From NCBI GenBank assembly GCA_028818995.1, contig JAPPMR010000834.1, positions 1 to 7,022 of the forward strand: DNA of 7,022 nt, read 5' to 3'. Source of the DNA: Candidatus Poribacteria bacterium (lineage in GTDB: Bacteria > Poribacteria > WGA-4E > WGA-3G). The translations under genes were made by a program, and so were the position numbers. Shown here piece by piece: positions 1-7,022 of the stretch; within the stretch, counting starts at the first letter, position 1; each line of letters begins with the position of its first letter. Below the pieces are notes generated by a model. That model was not told the DNA's origin. It saw only the letters and a program-made list of their open reading frames with translations, and searched no databases.

Positions 1-33
1 AAAACCCCTAATTTACCCCACGCCCTTGTTTAT

Positions 34-70
34 ATTGTGGGTTTCCGATCCCCTCAACCCGACCTACAAT
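34..70. repeat. Imperfect hairpin repeat sharing a 12-mer with the 6090-6124 element
   Basis: ATTGT (34-38) followed by GGGTT (39-43) pairs with AACCC (56-60) and ACAAT (66-70), leaving GACCT (61-65) as a one-sided bulge. The segment ACCCGACCTACA (57-68) is the exact reverse complement of 6090-6101, which also forms one arm of a hairpin. A 12-base match alone could occur by chance in 7 kb, but its placement in a hairpin at both sites suggests related or degenerate copies of one family. Confidence 0.5.
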
Positions 71-147
71 GCAACTATAATAAATAATGTTTGTAATAAA
101 ATACACAGAAAAACCGAAAACTAAATAACCCTGAACTTGAACCCTTT

Positions 148-172
148 GGTTAGATGCGATTTCCTAACCGCA
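148..172. repeat. Short inverted repeat with two alternative stems
   Basis: GGTTAG (148-153) and CTAACC (164-169) form a perfect 6-bp stem. The overlapping segments 155-161 and 166-172 (TGCG...CGCA) form an alternative 7-bp stem with one A/C mismatch. This compact design resembles the other interspersed hairpins in the window. It is probably a degenerate repeat copy; no function can be assigned. Confidence 0.45.
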
Positions 173-205
173 CCATAGATGTCAATTTAGTGGTACGCCA
201 TCCCG

Positions 206-232
206 GTAGGCGCGTTTTGTAAACGCGCCTAC
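206..232. repeat. Perfect 12-bp inverted repeat, 3-nt loop
   Basis: GTAGGCGCGTTT (206-217) and AAACGCGCCTAC (221-232) are perfect reverse complements around a TGT loop. The stem is GC-rich and would fold stably as RNA or as a cruciform. Only TTT follows it, so it lacks the long U-tract of an intrinsic terminator. It is followed 11 bases later by the CGGGCTT hairpin, the same order of modules seen at 3728-3826. Confidence 0.85.
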
Positions 233-243
233 TTTAGGGTAAT

Positions 244-269
244 AAATCGGGCTTACAAAGCCCTCCAAC
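244..269. repeat. CGGGCTT hairpin repeat, copy 1
   Basis: This 26-bp unit matches 3801-3826 at 25 of 26 positions; the only difference is A at 255 against T at 3812. Within it GGGCTT (249-254) pairs with AAGCCC (258-263) around a 3-nt loop. Two near-identical copies 3.5 kb apart, both intergenic and both just downstream of a GTAGG...CCTAC hairpin, show a dispersed repeat family. Confidence 0.9.
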
Positions 270-324
270 AAGAGTGCTGCGTGACAATTGAATGGCTCTC
301 TGAAGATTAGGATTTAGATTTTAG

Positions 325-353
325 TTGCAATTGCCGCGTAGATGTGTTAAAAT
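325..353 (+). promoter_or_regulatory. Sigma70-like promoter for the HNH gene
   Basis: TTGCAA (325-330) and TAAAAT (348-353) match the -35 and -10 consensus at 4 of 6 and 5 of 6 positions with the ideal 17-bp spacer. The -10 box lies about 45 bases ahead of the GTG start at 400. It may also drive rnpA and the genes beyond, since all are co-directional. The call rests on sequence pattern only. Confidence 0.55.
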
Positions 354-399
354 ACTATTTGACTAAAATCAGAATACTTGCTTGTAGGAGGACAGGCGA

Positions 400-912
400 G
401 TGGAAGTACCTGTTTTAGTGCTAAATGCCAGTTATGAAGCAATTAATGTTTGCAATCTCAGACGCGCTCTGAAGATGGTTTTTAAGGGAACCGCTCAGAC
501 AGAGGAAGTGTCTGAATCGGAAATACGGTCACCGTCGGCTATTGTCAAAGTGCCGCATGTTATTCGCCTGGTGAATTACGTGCATGTACCGCGCAGTGTT
601 GTCAAGTTTTCCCGTAAGAATGTACTTGCGCGCGACCAACATGTATGTCAATACTGCCACCGAGAGTTTCCTGCTTCCCTGCTAACGCTCGACCACGTTA
701 TCCCAATTTCAAAGGGTGGCAAGACAACTTGGGATAATGTTGTGACCGCTTGCAAACGCTGTAACAATAACAAAGGCAATCAGATGCTTCATGAGACGCA
801 TTTCAAGTTGAAACGAATGCCGAAAACACCTTCAATCTTAACGTATTTGCAACTCAACCGTCATTTTCGAGGTTACCATCCGTCTTGGAAAAAGTATCTC
901 TATATAAATTGA
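400..912 (+). CDS. HNH endonuclease family protein
   Basis: This is a 170-residue protein of the widespread small HNH nuclease family whose N-terminus reads VLVLNASYEAINVC, followed by a C-terminal treble-clef-like HNH module. Visible motif residues are the zinc-type cysteine pairs C83/C86 and C118/C121, the catalytic-type D98-H99, N113 and the N122...K125 tail. The length and complete motif suggest an intact metal-dependent nuclease; the substrate and biological role are unknown. The start is GTG, preceded by AGGAGG at 386-391 with 8-base spacing; an in-frame TAG at 385-387 rules out anything further upstream. It ends in TGA. It sits 86 bp ahead of rnpA, the position usually held by rpmH, and is co-directional with it. 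Sure of the family, not of the function. Confidence 0.9.
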   Translation: MEVPVLVLNASYEAINVCNLRRALKMVFKGTAQTEEVSESEIRSPSAIVKVPHVIRLVNYVHVPRSVVKFSRKNVLARDQHVCQYCHREFPASLLTLDHVIPISKGGKTTWDNVVTACKRCNNNKGNQMLHETHFKLKRMPKTPSILTYLQLNRHFRGYHPSWKKYLYIN

Positions 913-998
913 AACTAAAAGACAGTTGTTTTGCTTATTCTTATCCCATTATGTGTGTGAGCAGAAGGTAAACCATTCAGAATTGCGCGGAGGAGAAG

Positions 999-1391
999 GT
1001 GCTTTCAATCTGGATAAATCCTGAAGTTATGCCGTATCAACCACATCCAGAAAGACTGAAGAAGACTTGGGAATTTCAGAGAGCATATAAAAAAGGGAAA
1101 AAGAACTGGAATACTCACTTCGTTATCTACGTCTACCACACAGAATTCAGTCAGCCACGGTTAGGAATAACAGTCAGTAAAAAGGTAGGTGAGAGTGTTC
1201 AGAGGAACCGCGTGAAACGACTTATTCGTGAAGCCTACCGCCTGATTAAGCCTGAAGTTCTGCCACATTTAGATATTGTAGTTGTGGGTAGAAAAGCTGC
1301 CCTCGGTCTTTCAGGACAGCAAGCTGAAGAAAGTTTATACCAATTATTCTGCCGAGCATCAATCATGGTAACGAGAAAGACAGATTTATAG
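999..1391 (+). CDS. rnpA: Ribonuclease P protein component
   Basis: RnpA binds the catalytic RNase P RNA and helps it remove 5' leaders from precursor tRNAs in the cytoplasm. The 130-residue product has the family core: LKKTWEFQRAYKKGKK near residues 20-35, RLGITVSKKVG at about 52-62, and the signature RNR motif R69-N70-R71 followed by VKRLIREA. DIVVVGRK follows near residue 90. Length is typical. The GTG at 999 is chosen because CGGAGGAG lies at 988-995; an in-frame ATG at 1029 (residue 11) is an alternative that lacks such a site. It stops with TAG. The neighbours yidD and yidC are its usual partners, so identification is firm. Confidence 0.95.
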   Translation: MLSIWINPEVMPYQPHPERLKKTWEFQRAYKKGKKNWNTHFVIYVYHTEFSQPRLGITVSKKVGESVQRNRVKRLIREAYRLIKPEVLPHLDIVVVGRKAALGLSGQQAEESLYQLFCRASIMVTRKTDL

Positions 1392-1503
1392 ATGTATTGG
1401 CAGCGTAAACCTCTGTAAAGATTGGAATATAGTCAAACAAATACCTATAAAAAGTTTGTTGGGTCAAAAACATCTCCTGCAAGTGAACGGTTTGTAAAAG
1501 AAA

Positions 1504-1713
1504 ATGAGCCGATTAATTCTCTACGCTATCCGCGGGTATCGCCGCTTTATCTCCCCACTTTTTCCTCCAACGTGTCGTTTCCATCCGACTTGTTCACACT
1601 ACGCACAACAGGCATTTGAGCAATATGGTACTTTTAAAGGCATCTGGTTAACTCTAAAACGACTGGCAAAATGCCATCCTTACCATCCAGGGGGTTTTGA
1701 CCCACTTCAGTAA
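1504..1713 (+). CDS. yidD: Membrane protein insertion efficiency factor YidD
   Basis: YidD is a small membrane-associated protein thought to assist YidC-dependent insertion of inner-membrane proteins. The 69-residue product carries the family pattern almost end to end: [23 protein letters not shown], then YGTFKGIWL, then [12 protein letters not shown]. The conserved cysteines are C24, C30 and C57. Length matches the family. An in-frame TAA at 1495-1497 sits just ahead of the ATG, so no longer N-terminus is possible. No good ribosome binding site is visible upstream, and 112 bp separate it from rnpA, which is wider than the overlap or near-overlap often seen. The stop is TAA; yidC starts 92 bp later. 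Confidence 0.95.
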
Positions 1714-1733
1714 CAAATAACAAATAACATAAA

Positions 1734-1764
1734 TTGACATGTAGTGAATGGCGAGCCGTAAAAA
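1734..1764 (+). promoter_or_regulatory. Possible internal promoter ahead of yidC
   Basis: A perfect -35 hexamer TTGACA (1734-1739) is followed after 19 bases by TAAAAA (1759-1764). The spacer is longer than ideal and the -10 is weak. It could allow yidC expression independent of rnpA, but chance occurrence is plausible. Confidence 0.25.
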
Positions 1765-1770
1765 CCTCGC
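1750..1770. repeat. Short inverted repeat before yidC
   Basis: GCGAG (1751-1755) pairs with CTCGC (1766-1770) around a 10-nt loop in the yidD-yidC gap. The layout resembles the interspersed hairpins elsewhere, but the stem is only 5 bp, so it may be a degenerate copy or chance. Confidence 0.3.
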
Positions 1771-1805
1771 GCTATAAAAAATGAAAGAGGAGCATCTAAA
1801 TTTAA

Positions 1806-3668
1806 ATGGGATCCCGTTACATTCTCGCACTTGTTCTAATGATTGCTGTAATGATTGCATGGACTCTGATGTTTGGCAAACCCAAACCCCTTACCCCTGA
1901 ACAGGACGACCCCGCAATAACCGAACAAACTCCGCCAAGTGACACAACTGATGGAATTGATCTTGGAGAAAAGGAAGAAGACTCCATTGATACAAACCCA
2001 CTGATGATGGTTCAGGAGAGTCCCGATGATCCTATGGTCCGCGTCAGAACATCTACTTACGACATCACTTTTAACGAAAAACTGGCAATAGCCAAAAAAT
2101 GGGGATTGATAGAAAAAAAAGAAAACGGAAGTCTTCGCTTTCCCGACAGATCAGACACGACTGAAGACGTGCCGTTGAACCTTATTCCTGAGACAGCACA
2201 TGACTGTCTTGAACTTCAGATTGGAAATTCATATCTTCAGAATGAACTCAATTTACGGCACGCTTTATGGAAGGTTGATAAACCGGAAGGCATTCAACTA
2301 TCAGATACACAAGAGAAGGGGACACTTACCTTCACAACTACGATTGACGAGCAATTGCGAGTTGTCAAACAATTTACCTTTTACAACAATAGTTATACGG
2401 TGGATTTGGACTTAACGTTCGAAAATGTTTCCGATGCTTCAGAATCATTGTTGATAGGTGGAAATAAAGAATGGAATGGTTATGAATTGCGTTGGGGGCC
2501 AGGAATTAATGCTGACCTACTCGTACACGAAAAAGAGACAGGTAAAGCAGGACGCCGTGGTTCCGAAGGTGCTAAAACTTATATCGGTTCGGGAAAACCT
2601 ACACGCGAACTCAAGCAAGAAGATGCTTTAGTGACAGTACTCTGGGCAGGTATGAATAGTCAATATTTTAGTGCCATAATGATTCCCGACCCGCAACTTG
2701 AAGCTACTTATGCACTGGATTATAATGAAAAAGCAAATGAGTCAGCAGATATCCTTGTGGCTGCACCTACTGAGACCGCTGTTTTGACAATCCCTCGTTT
2801 TCCACTTCCGTCTCAGCAAAAGCGAACGCATGTTTTTCGTTTATACGTCGGACCAAAGGATGATACATTGTTGAAGCAGGTCACTGCTCCCAATGTGCCA
2901 GAAACTCAAATTAACTTATCTAAAGCCATTGACTTCGGATTTCTCGGTCCTGTGGTATGGGGAATGCTGTGGTTAGTAAAGGCGTTGCACAACATTTTTG
3001 GGAATTATGGGGTAGCAATAATTCTATTAACTGCATTAGTAAAGATAATTTCTTTTCCGCTTACCCGCAAAGCGCATGTCTCTATGAAAAAGATGCAGGA
3101 ACTGCAACCGCAATTGACTGAATTAAGAGAAAAATATCGCGACGACCCGCAAAAACTGAATAGAGCCACAATGCGTATTTACAAAGAAAATGGGGTGAAC
3201 CCGTTGGGTGGGTGTATCCCTTGGCTTCCGCAACTCCCTATTTTTTGGGCACTCTACGGGCTGCTTGGGAGTGCAGTTGAATTTCGAGGTGCGCCTTTCT
3301 TCTTGTGGATTGATGATCTTTCGGCACCAGATACATTGTATAAACTCCCATTTACAATACCGCTAATCTTGATGGAAATAGACTCTATCCGATTCTTACC
3401 GCTTCTGAATGGACTCACAGCATGGCTCCAGCAGAAATATGTCGGTGGAATGTCTGCTACGCCCGCTACCAGTAATACACAGGCAAAAATCATGCAGTTT
3501 TTGCCGCTTATCTTCGTCTTTATGTTTTATAACTGGGCTTCGGGATTTGTGTTATACTGGTTATGTAATAGTGTTCTTACTGTAGCACAACAACAAATAC
3601 AAACGAAATTTTTCCATGATGGCGAATCCGAAACACAGGAAAATACTCCAAAGCGCAAACCGAATTGA
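1806..3668 (+). CDS. yidC: Membrane protein insertase YidC (Oxa1 family)
   Basis: YidC inserts and folds proteins in the cytoplasmic membrane, alone or with SecYEG. The 620-residue protein has an N-terminal membrane anchor (about residues 4-24), an acidic linker, a large periplasmic domain (about 60-370) and the Oxa1 core. In the core a hydrophobic stretch at about 400-420 leads into FPLTR421, the conserved arginine of the hydrophilic groove. The cytoplasmic helical hairpin (KKMQELQPQLTELREKY) follows, then NPLGGC470IPWLPQLPIFWALY, and a last membrane segment from about 563 to 590. The tail is basic (KRKPN). The periplasmic domain is typical of Gram-negative YidC. The ATG is fixed by a TAA immediately before it; AGAGGAG at 1786-1792 is 13 bases away, rather distant. 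It ends in TGA. Confidence 0.97.
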   Translation: MGSRYILALVLMIAVMIAWTLMFGKPKPLTPEQDDPAITEQTPPSDTTDGIDLGEKEEDSIDTNPLMMVQESPDDPMVRVRTSTYDITFNEKLAIAKKWGLIEKKENGSLRFPDRSDTTEDVPLNLIPETAHDCLELQIGNSYLQNELNLRHALWKVDKPEGIQLSDTQEKGTLTFTTTIDEQLRVVKQFTFYNNSYTVDLDLTFENVSDASESLLIGGNKEWNGYELRWGPGINADLLVHEKETGKAGRRGSEGAKTYIGSGKPTRELKQEDALVTVLWAGMNSQYFSAIMIPDPQLEATYALDYNEKANESADILVAAPTETAVLTIPRFPLPSQQKRTHVFRLYVGPKDDTLLKQVTAPNVPETQINLSKAIDFGFLGPVVWGMLWLVKALHNIFGNYGVAIILLTALVKIISFPLTRKAHVSMKKMQELQPQLTELREKYRDDPQKLNRATMRIYKENGVNPLGGCIPWLPQLPIFWALYGLLGSAVEFRGAPFFLWIDDLSAPDTLYKLPFTIPLILMEIDSIRFLPLLNGLTAWLQQKYVGGMSATPATSNTQAKIMQFLPLIFVFMFYNWASGFVLYWLCNSVLTVAQQQIQTKFFHDGESETQENTPKRKPN

Positions 3669-3727
3669 TATTTTTAGAGCGTATCTCATAAATAAGATTT
3701 GTTGGTTCATTATCAGTTGATTCTCTT

Positions 3728-3792
3728 TGTAGGAGGGAACTCCGATTCCCGACTATTAGTGGTTTCGTCGCGATTCGGAGATCGCTCCTACA
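3728..3792. repeat. Long interrupted hairpin GTAGGAG...CTCCTAC
   Basis: TGTAGGAG (3728-3735) pairs with CTCCTACA (3785-3792), and inside it CTCCGA (3740-3745) pairs with TCGGAG (3775-3780), enclosing a 29-nt central loop. The two nested stems make a stable structure downstream of yidC. There is no U-tract after it, so it is better read as a repeat element than as an intrinsic terminator, although it could protect the yidC mRNA 3' end. Confidence 0.75.
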
Positions 3793-3800
3793 GGATATTG

Positions 3801-3826
3801 AAATCGGGCTTTCAAAGCCCTCCAAC
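3801..3826. repeat. CGGGCTT hairpin repeat, copy 2
   Basis: This unit matches 244-269 at 25 of 26 bases. GGGCTT (3806-3811) pairs with AAGCCC (3815-3820). It follows the preceding hairpin by only a few bases, as copy 1 follows the 206-232 hairpin, so the two modules seem to travel or assemble together. Confidence 0.9.
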
Positions 3827-3862
3827 TATTTATGAGATAGGTTGTAGTTAATCTTGTTAAAC

Positions 3863-3890
3863 TTTAGATAAGCTTTTTATCAATTATTAT
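3863..3890 (+). promoter_or_regulatory. Possible promoter for jag and mnmE
   Basis: TTTAGA (3863-3868) and TATTAT (3885-3890), separated by 16 bases, match the sigma70 boxes at 4 of 6 and 5 of 6 positions. The 279-bp gap after yidC, filled by repeats, makes a separate promoter for jag-mnmE reasonable. The region is AT-rich, so chance matches are likely. Confidence 0.3.
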
Positions 3891-3932
3891 CGTTTAAATT
3901 TACCACTTATATGCGTGAATCTTCAACAGCAC

Positions 3933-3950
3933 AAGGAGTACTGCCAATTG
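3933..3950 (+). promoter_or_regulatory. Ribosome binding site that sets the jag start at TTG
   Basis: AAGGAG (3933-3938) lies 9 bases ahead of TTG (3948-3950). The alternative in-frame GTG at 3915 has no comparable site upstream, and would place this purine-rich motif inside the coding region. Confidence 0.7.
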
Positions 3951-4574
3951 CAAAATTATATTGAAACTGAAGCGGAAACTGTCGAAGAGGCAATTGAAAT
4001 TGCGCTCACACAACTTGAAACGACGCGTGAAGACGTCAACATCATAATTATAAACGAACCGACTAAAGGCATTTTGAGTTTCGGTGCGAAACCCGCAAAA
4101 ATTCGTGCTACGCTAAAGGAAGATATTTCTACCGCACCAGAGACCGTCCTGAAGGAAATGCTCACGCGAATAGGTATTAACGGTGAAGTTGAATCTAATT
4201 TTATCGAGGGAAGTTTGCACCTCAACATGGTTACCGATTCGCCAGCACTTCTTATCGGAAAACATGGACAGACACTTGATGCTATTGAACGTCTTCTTAA
4301 TTGCATTGTCAACAAGAATGCACTCGCTAAGAAAAAGGTGTTCGTCAATACCGAAGGTTATCGTGAACGGAGAGAGCAAACGCTCGTAGACCTGGCACAT
4401 CAAGTTGCTGCAAAAGTCAAACGGACGCGTCAAGATGTTGTTCTTGCCCCTATGTCTGCTAAAGACAGACGCGTGATCCATCTTGCCTTACAATCGGATG
4501 ATAACGTTTCAACGTTTAGCCAAGGTGAAGGTGATATGCGTCGTATTGTTATTACAAGACAAGATAACTATTGA
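3948..4574 (+). CDS. jag: RNA-binding protein Jag/KhpB (Jag_N, KH, R3H)
   Basis: Jag (also KhpB or EloR) is a cytoplasmic RNA-binding protein encoded next to yidC in many bacteria; in Gram-positives it is linked to cell elongation and division. The 208-residue product has a Jag_N domain at 1-50 (ETVEEAIEIAL ... GILSFGAKPAKI), a KH domain with the GxxG loop G104-K-H-G107, and an R3H domain with R174-R-V-I-H178 plus a GDMRRIVI strand at the end. The TTG start is preferred over GTG at 3915 because of its ribosome binding site and because MQNYIETEAETVEEA matches the usual family N-terminus, leaving no 11-residue extension. It ends in TGA, 78 bp before mnmE, so the two are probably cotranscribed. 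Confidence 0.92.
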   Translation: MQNYIETEAETVEEAIEIALTQLETTREDVNIIIINEPTKGILSFGAKPAKIRATLKEDISTAPETVLKEMLTRIGINGEVESNFIEGSLHLNMVTDSPALLIGKHGQTLDAIERLLNCIVNKNALAKKKVFVNTEGYRERREQTLVDLAHQVAAKVKRTRQDVVLAPMSAKDRRVIHLALQSDDNVSTFSQGEGDMRRIVITRQDNY

Positions 4575-4652
4575 GCCAGAGAAATACGACCAAGTTGAGG
4601 AATATCAAATTACCAGTAACCTCATGCTGTACTGAAAAACGAGGGTTGCGAT

Positions 4653-6041
4653 ATGAAATTTGAGGATACTATCGCCGCCATCGCAACACCGCGCGGTGAA
4701 GGCGGTATCGGTATAGTACGCGTCAGTGGACCGCTGGCAATCCCAATCGCATCTCAGTTGTTTCGTCCCTCACGCGTTATCTCGCCTGATGAACTCCCAT
4801 CACATACACTTACACACGGACACGTTATAGATACATCAGCATCCGATGAAATCATTGACGAAGTGATGCTGGGTATTATGCGCTCCCCGAAAACGTATAC
4901 CACCGAAGACATTGTTGAATTTAACTGCCATGGCGGAATTGTTCCGCTAACAACCGTGTTAGCATTAGTGGTAAAAGCGGGAGCAAGACTCGCTGAACCG
5001 GGCGAGTTTACGAAACGTGCCTTTCTTAACGGTAGACTTGACCTCGCACAAGCTGAAGCAGTAGCAGAACTCATCAGTTCAAAAACAGAACTTAGCCGAA
5101 AAATCGCAATTCAGGCACTTGAAGGCAAACTCTCTGAAAGTGTGAATCAACTCAGCGATACACTTGCGGCATTGCTCGCAGAAATTGAAGCCTCCATTGA
5201 TTTTCCCGACGAAGACCTTGATTTTATGAAGGTTGAGGCGCAGCTTCAGACTGCCCGTACTGTTCAGACAGATTTGACGCACTTACTCGAAACTGCTTCG
5301 GAAGGACGTTTAATCAAGGAGGGTGTTAACGTCGCTATTTTGGGCAAACCAAACGTCGGAAAATCAAGCCTATTCAATGCGCTTGTTCGCTCAGCACGCG
5401 CTATTGTCACAGATATTCCCGGCACGACGCGGGACACGATTGATGAAACTATAAATCTTGACGGTATACCTATAAATCTGATTGACACCGCTGGACTACG
5501 ACAAACGGAGGATATTGTTGAACAACAAGGTGTTCAACGGAGTAGAGACGTTCTCAATAGAGCTGAATTTCTACTCCTAATGTTTGACGCATCCCAACCC
5601 CTAAATGAAGCGGATACTGAACTTTTGCAGATAGCGAATTCACACCGCGCAATCCTGATTCTAAATAAAATTGATCTTCCCGCCATCGTCCAACCACAGG
5701 CGTTAACTGACCATTGTCCAAAGGTTTGCATTGTTCAAACAGCAATTACTGAAGACAAAGGTATTGATGTGTTGAAAACTGCTATCCGAGAAGAATTGCT
5801 TGGTGAAGAATTCAATATAGGTGAATCTCCAATTGTTACGAATACTCGCCATCAAGATGCGCTACGCCGTGCGCAAGAGGCACTTGATAATGTTATAGTG
5901 AGTTTAGAAAACGAGATGCCACCTGATCTTGTTTCGGTTGATCTGCGTATTAGTCTTGATGCCCTCGGTGACATTGTTGGTAAAACAACCACTGAAGATA
6001 TTTTGGACCGAATTTTCTCACAGTTCTGTGTCGGCAAGTAA
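4653..6041 (+). CDS. mnmE: tRNA modification GTPase MnmE (TrmE)
   Basis: With MnmG, MnmE installs the (carboxymethyl)aminomethyl group on uridine 34 of certain tRNAs, using GTP and a folate one-carbon donor. The 462-residue protein is full length. It opens with the folate-domain signature DTIAAIATPRGEGGIGIVRVSG. The inserted G domain shows G1 at 231-238 (GKPNVGKS), G2/G3-type DIPGTTRDT at 254-262 and DTAGLR at 278-283, and NKID at 338-341. It ends in the catalytic CVGK motif (C459) at the extreme C-terminus. ATG has GAGGG at 4641-4645, 7 bases upstream. The stop is TAA. The usual partner gene mnmG does not directly follow; a 258-bp gap and an unrelated exported redox gene do. Confidence 0.98.
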   Translation: MKFEDTIAAIATPRGEGGIGIVRVSGPLAIPIASQLFRPSRVISPDELPSHTLTHGHVIDTSASDEIIDEVMLGIMRSPKTYTTEDIVEFNCHGGIVPLTTVLALVVKAGARLAEPGEFTKRAFLNGRLDLAQAEAVAELISSKTELSRKIAIQALEGKLSESVNQLSDTLAALLAEIEASIDFPDEDLDFMKVEAQLQTARTVQTDLTHLLETASEGRLIKEGVNVAILGKPNVGKSSLFNALVRSARAIVTDIPGTTRDTIDETINLDGIPINLIDTAGLRQTEDIVEQQGVQRSRDVLNRAEFLLLMFDASQPLNEADTELLQIANSHRAILILNKIDLPAIVQPQALTDHCPKVCIVQTAITEDKGIDVLKTAIREELLGEEFNIGESPIVTNTRHQDALRRAQEALDNVIVSLENEMPPDLVSVDLRISLDALGDIVGKTTTEDILDRIFSQFCVGK

Positions 6042-6089
6042 ACACAATCTCTTAACGTTACGTTTGTCATGCTAATAGTGCTGTAGTAT

Positions 6090-6124
6090 TGTAGGTCGGG
6101 TAGAGCGAAGCGACACCCGACATG
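6090..6124. repeat. Hairpin repeat downstream of mnmE
   Basis: GTCGGGT (6095-6101) pairs perfectly with ACCCGAC (6115-6121); the loop contains a small GC-GAA-GC mini-stem (6105-6111). The left arm TGTAGGTCGGGT recurs in reverse complement at 57-68. It lies 50 bases after the mnmE stop. No U-tract follows, so it is not a standard terminator, though it may act on the mnmE mRNA end. The rest of the 6042-6299 gap holds only a possible promoter and the next gene's ribosome binding site. Confidence 0.7.
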
Positions 6125-6227
6125 AACTAAACTATGTGACAATTGTTTACACACCCATGAATCTGTTTTAACTGGACATACTTCGTGGGATATGGTATTA
6201 TTTTACAATCACTAAAACGATAAGCCG

Positions 6228-6257
6228 TTGCGCAGGTTATCTGTTCAACATTATAAC
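6228..6257 (+). promoter_or_regulatory. Possible promoter for the thioredoxin-fold selenoprotein gene
   Basis: TTGCGC (6228-6233) and TATAAC (6252-6257), 18 bases apart, give modest sigma70 matches about 43 bases ahead of the ATG at 6300. The long gap and the change of functional theme after mnmE make an own promoter likely, but this exact placement is uncertain. Confidence 0.35.
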
Positions 6258-6299
6258 TTAGGAAACACTTAATTATCGTTTACCTAAAGGAGAGAATTA

Positions 6300-7022
6300 A
6301 TGTATAATTCTGTTTTTCACCGCTACTCTCCCTATGTAGCAGGACTCACCGTCCTCTTACTAATAACAGTATCAATTCCTGTCCTTGCAGAAGGCGAAAA
6401 AGTCCAATGGGGAAAATCCGTTGAGGATGCTACGAAACAAGCCGCTGAAACCGGTAAACCGATTATGATGGACTTCTATACAGATTCGTGAGGTTGGTGT
6501 GATCGGCTGGATGCCGAAACATTCACTGATGCAAACGTCATCACTCTTTCTGAAAAGTTCATTACTGTCAAGGTAAATCCACAAGACGAGGAACTGCCCA
6601 TAAACGACGAAACGCGCAAAAAGTATGGAATTACAGGCTATCCGACAATTTTGTTCATCGGTCCGGATGGCGGTGTCATCACTAAAAAGGTGGGATACGC
6701 TCCACCTGAAGAATTTGCACCTGTGATGGAAGAAGCTCTAAAAAAGGAGATGGAATTCCAGGCAAAATTGGCAATATTTAAGGAAATGCCGGATGATGTC
6801 ACACTAAACCGTGAAATTGCTACACTCTATCTACAACGTCAACAGATTGAGAAAGCACTCCTGATTAGCGAGAAAATGCCCGATGATGTTGAAATCAACC
6901 GCGAAATCGGTATCTATTATCTTGGTAAGAATGAAATTGAGAAAGCACTACTGATAAGTGAGAAAATTCCCGATGATATTGAACTAAACCGAGAAATTGG
7001 TATCTATTATCTCAACAAGAAA
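6300..7022 (+). CDS. Predicted exported thioredoxin-fold selenoprotein with TPR-like repeats (3' partial)
   Basis: The reading frame runs 241 codons from ATG to the window edge with one internal TGA (codon 64). Strong AAAGGAGAG (6286-6294) precedes the ATG. Residues 1-30 form a signal peptide (hydrophobic core 13-29, likely cleavage after VLA30), so the protein acts outside the cytoplasm. Residues 31-150 are a thioredoxin-like domain: KPIMMDFYTDS, then the active site Sec64-Gly-Trp-Cys67, DRLDAETF, a beta strand FITVKVN, and the cis-proline loop GYP115T followed by ILFIGPDG. Relatives carry Cys-Gly-Trp-Cys here, which is why TGA is read as selenocysteine. Residues 163-241 are 30-residue TPR-like helical repeats and continue past the end. 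Likely a thiol-disulfide oxidoreductase; its partner is unknown. A nonsense mutation is the alternative, in which case this is a pseudogene. Confidence 0.8.
6489..6491 (+). other. In-frame TGA read as selenocysteine (Sec64)
   Basis: TGA replaces the codon of the first redox cysteine in the thioredoxin CxxC motif, giving UGWC. The flanking sequence on both sides continues the same domain in the same frame without any gap. HNH, yidC and jag use TGA as a normal stop, and tryptophan is TGG (including the codon two positions later), so reading depends on local context rather than on a changed code. Decoding needs selA, selB, selC and selD, none of which is in this window. Confidence 0.8.
6496..6523 (+). 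promoter_or_regulatory. Candidate bacterial SECIS element
   Basis: Starting 4 nt after the TGA, TCGGC (6503-6507) pairs perfectly with GCCGA (6513-6517) around the loop TGGAT. A lower stem GGTGT (6496-6500) pairs with ACATT (6519-6523), using two G-U pairs next to each other, across a small internal loop. The apical loop begins 16 nt past the TGA and has G at its second position. As I recall them, these fit the published bacterial SECIS rules (loop about 16-37 nt from UGA, G among the first loop bases, short upper stem). SelB would bind it to recruit Sec-tRNA. The fold was made by eye. Confidence 0.65.
6786..7022 (+). repeat. Tandem 90-bp coding repeats (30-residue TPR-like units)
   Basis: Units start at 6786, 6876 and 6966; the third is cut by the window end. 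Each encodes a unit starting (M/I)PDD(V/I), followed by NREI, a YL-ending helix, and IEKALLISEK. Over the 57 bases available, units 2 and 3 are about 81% identical at the DNA level, so duplication seems recent. The helix-turn-helix pattern suggests a TPR-like protein-interaction array; the 30-residue period is shorter than the standard 34. Confidence 0.85.

Follow-up and report, generated by a model that had tools for sequence, protein, structure and literature searches.

Does the in-frame TGA at codon 64 of a thioredoxin-like gene from a Candidatus Poribacteria bacterium end translation, or is it read as selenocysteine (Sec)? The gene lies at the end of a 7,022-nt stretch of DNA (assembly GCA_028818995.1, contig JAPPMR010000834.1, positions 1 to 7,022 of the forward strand), hereafter called the window, and all of its features described below are on the + strand. 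A frame opened by ATG at 6300 meets TGA at 6489–6491 and then stays open for the next 177 codons up to 7022, where the gene (6300–7022) runs off the window end. It had been described in the same terms in an earlier, sequence-only reading that proposed a selenoprotein, and our re-reading of the frame agreed. Comparison with relatives supported that proposal. The gene very probably encodes an exported selenoprotein, a predicted thiol-disulfide oxidoreductase of the cell envelope in which UGA 64 is predicted to be read as Sec, because the TGA and a hairpin downstream of it are conserved, relatives carry the Sec machinery, coding constraint continues past the TGA, and the product combines thioredoxin and tetratricopeptide repeat (TPR) domains. 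Insertion of Sec at codon 64, the predicted first residue of a UGWC motif, is strongly supported by this comparison.

A family search (E 1e-25) across 84 phylum genomes returned 79 matches, or 80 copies counting that of the window. The gene was present in 70 of the 84 genomes, all of them among the 72 that share the order of the window (the two without a match being G024 and G009, the latter of the same genus), and in none of the remaining 12. Codon 64 was TGA in 77 copies and TGC in one (L107), and two fragments began downstream of it (L108 and L109); thus TGA was found in 77 of the 78 Poribacteria copies that cover the position, even though the protein identity of TGA-bearing copies was as low as 33%. 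All 77 encode UxxC, most often as UGFC (27), UGWC (23), UGAC (9), UGSC (5) or UGYC (4), with UYWC (3), USWC (2) and single cases of UPAC, UDFC, UGTC and UGVC. Cys67 (TGT, 6498–6500), the predicted resolving cysteine of the motif, was kept in 77/77 of these copies, and Pro115 (CCG, 6642–6644), presumably the cis-proline expected of a thioredoxin fold, in 76/77; both residues were found where they had first been placed. The TGC copy, L107 (G035:C6), is a distant paralogue (36% identical) with a 761-codon open frame. No other member of the family with Cys was found in the phylum, and querying proteins with residues 26–150, which gave 18 matches, added none. Judged by eye, the L107 frame contains a sigma-factor-like part, a thioredoxin domain with CYWC, and TPR-like and beta-propeller-like parts.

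A contig scan of named genomes, whose Poribacteria set overlaps with that of the 84 genomes and is therefore not independent of it, gave 59 loci. TGA was present at all 37 Poribacteria loci, and TGC or TGT at all 22 loci of other phyla (including Omnitrophota, Desulfobacteraceae, Ignavibacteria and Latescibacterota), which is the pattern of Sec or Cys in homologues that the sequence-only reading had proposed as a check. A sequencing error at codon 64 is very unlikely, as the same TGA recurs in many separate assemblies.

The predicted signal for Sec insertion, a Sec insertion sequence (SECIS), is a core hairpin, CGGC-UGGAU-GCCG, at 6504–6516, the loop of which begins after 16 nt from the TGA; it is enclosed by a longer hairpin (6498–6521) with a lower stem that is partly kept in relatives. 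Published rules for bacterial SECIS elements (bSECIS) include a loop of 3–9 nt, an upper stem of at least 4 bp, a G among the first two loop positions (PMC13188914), a distance of 16–37 nt from the UGA and a minimum free energy of −7.5 kcal/mol or lower (PMC13188914, Fig. 2 legend). The window hairpin has a 5-nt loop, 5 bp, G at the second loop position, a distance of 16 nt and −9.1 kcal/mol, which agrees with these rules and with the SECIS-like hairpin noted originally. Among the 77 TGA copies, 72 had at least 4 contiguous core pairs, 77 had the loop G, and 76 reached −7.5 kcal/mol, the last being a permissive test that took the best of many sub-windows. Only 4 of 200 shuffles of the 24-nt hairpin piece folded as well. 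The 60-nt fold around the TGA was not outstanding (z −1.36, with 15/200 shuffles as good), so that it is the comparative evidence that decides. No Rfam match was found in the window at gathering thresholds.

The 77 TGA copies were aligned by codon, and their silent diversity was compared with the expectation from the codon usage of the same genes, over 171 scored columns. Codons 70, 73, 69, 71 and 72 ranked 1, 2, 3, 5 and 8 for least silent change, with ratios of silent diversity to expectation of 0.00, 0.03, 0.03, 0.17 and 0.22 (median 0.84). These nearly frozen codons, five to nine codons past the TGA, are those that encode CGGC-UGGAU-GCCG; codons 65 and 67 were near expectation (0.95 and 0.99). 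The stem read CGGC..GCCG in 65 copies, CAGC..GCTG in 7, CGGC..GCCA in 4 and CGAC..GCCG in 1, and the loop was UGGAU in 74 and UGGAC in 3. In the TGC paralogue L107 the site reads CAG TTA GAT CAA, with which the stem is impossible. Covariation was scored over 68 distinct rows. The score and the number of paired cells each beat all of 500 shuffles (0/500), a control that ignores relatedness; pairs with double changes (197/500) and pair types (482/500) were not above the shuffles. The scored 8-pair structure was derived from the window's own fold and is favoured for that reason in the slide control, in which a +1 slide gave 17 double-changed cells vs 10 for the scored structure and 22% paired cells vs 87%. 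Lower-stem pairs were broken in 14, 13 and 39 of the 68 rows, and RNAalifold by itself predicted just 3 pairs. The comparative evidence on codon and hairpin lies far beyond chance.

Sec decoding would also require tRNA-Sec, SelA, SelB and SelD, and these were detected in 71, 71, 75 and 75 of the 84 phylum genomes, respectively. In a set of 14 control genomes, the searches for tRNA-Sec and SelB were positive in E. coli and M. jannaschii only; a looser tRNA-Sec search (39 genomes) gave a signal in all 14 controls, above the cut-off in 5, and was not relied on. A look for selA, selB, selC and selD in the same genome had been suggested at the outset, and we carried this out on the genomes of relatives. 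The expectation held in G001, the closest genome compared (36% of the window's sampled 31-mers shared), which has all four components and a tRNA-Sec with anticodon TCA, and in each of the six phylum genomes that consist of one contig, where the selenoprotein gene and the complete machinery occur together; it did not hold throughout the 70 carriers, among which four components were present in 51, three in 13, two in 3, one in 2 and none in 1. All 75 selD matches contained one in-frame TGA. SelD is thus itself a predicted selenoprotein in this phylum, and Sec decoding is indicated independently of the thioredoxin-TPR gene. Sec-containing SelD is listed among known selenoproteins in those parts of the review literature consulted.

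If UGA 64 were a real, regulated stop, the locus would make a short exported peptide, with the TPR part translated from a separate internal start. This is how gene callers see it, since 46 of 49 database relatives, including the window's own protein, begin past residue 64. Standard gene calling was expected to yield a 63-residue fragment and to lose or misplace what follows, and P0002, the database protein for the window contig, is indeed 172 residues long and begins only with residue 70. The proposed internal starts nevertheless disagree among relatives, ranging from residue 70 to 143, and the N-terminal half alone would give no folded thioredoxin domain. The ratio of nonsynonymous to synonymous change (dN/dS) against five relatives was 0.12–0.25 after the TGA and 0.17–0.48 before it, so that the thioredoxin domain is under coding constraint on both sides of the codon; together with the invariance of Cys67 and near-invariance of Pro115, this makes a regulated stop very improbable. 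From base composition alone, 177 open codons would arise with P of about 1.6e-5, and the remaining two frames over the same stretch contain 9 and 18 stops. A pseudogene, or an error that put a stop at the catalytic residue, found no supporting point: 77 copies from many assemblies share the TGA, and dN/dS past it is well below 1, which refutes this explanation as far as sequences allow and bears out the original judgement that a chance nonsense mutation was the less likely account.

The frame would likewise stay open if UGA 64 were translated as an ordinary residue, either Trp or, via a Cys-charged Sec-like tRNA, Cys. The three database relatives that do cover residue 64 have Trp, Trp and Cys there, and the two with Trp, P0003 (WGSC) and P0030 (WGFC), agree with such decoding. 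P0030 is 91% identical to L096, whose codon 64 is TGA, and P0003 is at most 64% identical to any family copy compared; their Trp is either TGA called as Trp under translation table 4 or true TGG, and that of P0030 may be a product of such gene calling. Ordinary decoding would leave a conserved SECIS-type hairpin, SelA, SelB, SelD and tRNA-Sec needless, and homologues elsewhere carry Cys, not Trp, so that we regard it as improbable. General reassignment of TGA was also considered and rejected, in line with the sequence-only reading: TGA ends three window genes (910–912, 3666–3668 and 4572–4574) and terminates 5 of 76 complete family frames (including L105, which is short and perhaps broken).

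Besides the two Trp-bearing database proteins, several observations weigh against a selenoprotein. In G009, a member of the same genus whose genome is 95% complete, no copy was detected at E 1e-25. At least one machinery gene was missing from 19 of the 70 carriers, and all four from G011 (73% complete, 720 contigs); the deficient genomes are drafts, several of them incomplete, yet some are more than 90% complete. The core stem has fewer than 4 pairs in 5/77 copies, and just 1 in L106. Both sides of pair 17–27 were altered in 7/77 copies, all in one genus, and these double changes may represent a single event. Finally, we infer the redox role and its direction solely from fold and motif.

The predicted product consists of a signal-peptide-like start (residues 1–30, 6300–6389, judged by eye), a DsbD-gamma-like thioredoxin domain (residues 33–150, 6396–6749) and a TPR solenoid from residue 167 on (6798–7022), within which the window ends. 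The thioredoxin domain matched Thioredoxin_2 (PF13098) with 57.1 bits (cut-off 27), and no NCBIfam model reached its cut-off. The orthologue in G001, which sits after mnmE as in the window, has 402 codons with the same TGA and shows 94% identity to the window gene where the two overlap. This full-length protein has thioredoxin and TPR families in Pfam and a structure model (pLDDT 87.5) with helices from residue 167, in agreement with the TPR-like repeats suspected from the window alone.

In the proposed mechanism, UGA 64 would be decoded as Sec by tRNA-Sec and SelB, guided by the SECIS hairpin in the coding sequence just downstream. The N-terminal signal would export the product to the cell envelope as its site of work, where Sec64 may attack a disulfide or an oxidised thiol of a substrate, Cys67 would resolve the selenosulfide, and the TPR solenoid may hold substrates or partner proteins. 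Export, redox direction, substrates and partners are suggested by the fold, the motif and the signal-like start. A reductase of envelope disulfides or oxidised thiols is the most likely role. The main alternative, which we consider possible but rather unlikely, is that the same selenoprotein serves as an envelope chaperedoxin, in which the TPRs would hold unfolding proteins and the Sec-thioredoxin domain would protect or repair their thiols. For this role speaks the top Foldseek match of the whole model, E. coli YbbN (CnoX; 3qou, E 4.8e-6), in which a thioredoxin domain is likewise followed by TPRs; the whole-protein superposition was poor (TM 0.22/0.31). CnoX/YbbN is cytoplasmic and is not known to contain Sec.

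Selenoproteins with a thioredoxin fold and UxxC are a known kind, and two reviews list them (PMC13188914, Table 1; PMC9312934). Compared to other known systems, the envelope reductase candidate is closest to one listed type, the 'Thiol:disulfide interchange protein' selenoproteins, PF13098 proteins with UxxC for which WP_011366075.1 is the listed example. The Pfam domain and the Sec-first UxxC are common to both; in the 2022 review, proteins that share a domain but differ in Sec motif are placed in separate subfamilies. As domain and motif both match, we filed the thioredoxin-TPR protein with this known kind. It differs in its Poribacteria lineage and its fused TPR solenoid. The main texts of the two reviews mention neither Poribacteria nor tetratricopeptide, and we found no account of Poribacteria selenoproteins in the open-licence PMC literature. 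The TPR architecture and the near-fixation throughout an order look new. The DsbD gamma domain and DsbH have Cys where the Poribacteria protein has Sec, and their NCBIfam scores were far below the cut-offs (46.2 of 330 bits for DsbD, NF001419, where only the C-terminal model domain was matched, and 35.1 of 190 bits for DsbH). DsbD has a membrane part and is not known to have TPRs. The top NCBIfam score over the thioredoxin domain, 74.7 bits, was that of TsoB (NF045694), a rhodanese/DsbD fusion-like selenoprotein; it missed the cut-off of 805 by far and covered the C-terminal model domain only, and the Poribacteria protein is without a rhodanese part.

The gene is preceded by a ribosome-binding-site-like AAAGGAG, read from the sequence at 6286–6292, 7 nt upstream of the ATG, and a GGAG-type site precedes the start in most family copies. 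The gene order of the window is HNH endonuclease, rnpA (RNase P protein), YidD, YidC, a Jag/R3H protein, MnmE and then the selenoprotein frame. The HNH endonuclease gene (400–912; PF01844, 65.1 bits) is immediately upstream of rnpA. A non-coding stretch at 206–232 contains a perfect 12-bp inverted repeat with a 3-nt loop (GTAGGCGCGTTT/AAACGCGCCTAC), and GTAGG-rich stretches resembling it are intergenic, near 3731–3792 and 6090–6123.

Other candidate selenoproteins were seen in the phylum. In seven more thioredoxin frames, from five genomes, TGA is the first codon of the active-site motif; in an eighth, Cys takes this place. Most are dockerin-like-thioredoxin proteins; loci with a dockerin-like repeat and thioredoxin included L172, L173 (2982–3587 and 3714–5315), L174 and L175, with the motifs UPFC, UPSC and UIYC, and the TGA genes of this type often form an adjacent pair. 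With a dockerin-like-thioredoxin query, 79 of the 84 genomes gave matches at E 1e-15, and among the matches listed the strong ones mostly contained one TGA each, counted irrespective of its aligned position. In G008, G012, G020 and G022 the best match has no internal stop and may be a Cys form. G009 carries tRNA-Sec, SelA, SelB and SelD as well as a dockerin-like-thioredoxin gene with TGA. At locus L176 of G082 (2204–2446 and 7889–8134), a lipoprotein-like thioredoxin with UGFC is found ~5.7 kb from a CPFC thioredoxin protein, with Sec and Cys forms close together in one genome.

In the sponge Aplysina aerophoba, SelA and SelB are reported to be among the symbiont-enriched genes (PMC5649159; no selenoprotein is named in the portion consulted). 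We tentatively suggest that Poribacteria may run an envelope redox system on selenium, in which several exported thioredoxin-fold selenoproteins (thioredoxin-TPR, dockerin-like-thioredoxin and lipoprotein-like thioredoxin), missed in annotation because of their in-frame stops, would be clients of the symbiont-enriched selA/selB, with the thioredoxin-TPR protein as a selenium-based envelope chaperedoxin. The thioredoxin-TPR family is a direct candidate client of the SelA/SelB machinery in Poribacteria. Its gene occurs in nearly all genomes of the order, yet nearly all of its database relatives are fragments without the active site. The conserved hairpin would provide a handle for finding more selenoproteins of this lineage, of which several seem to exist.
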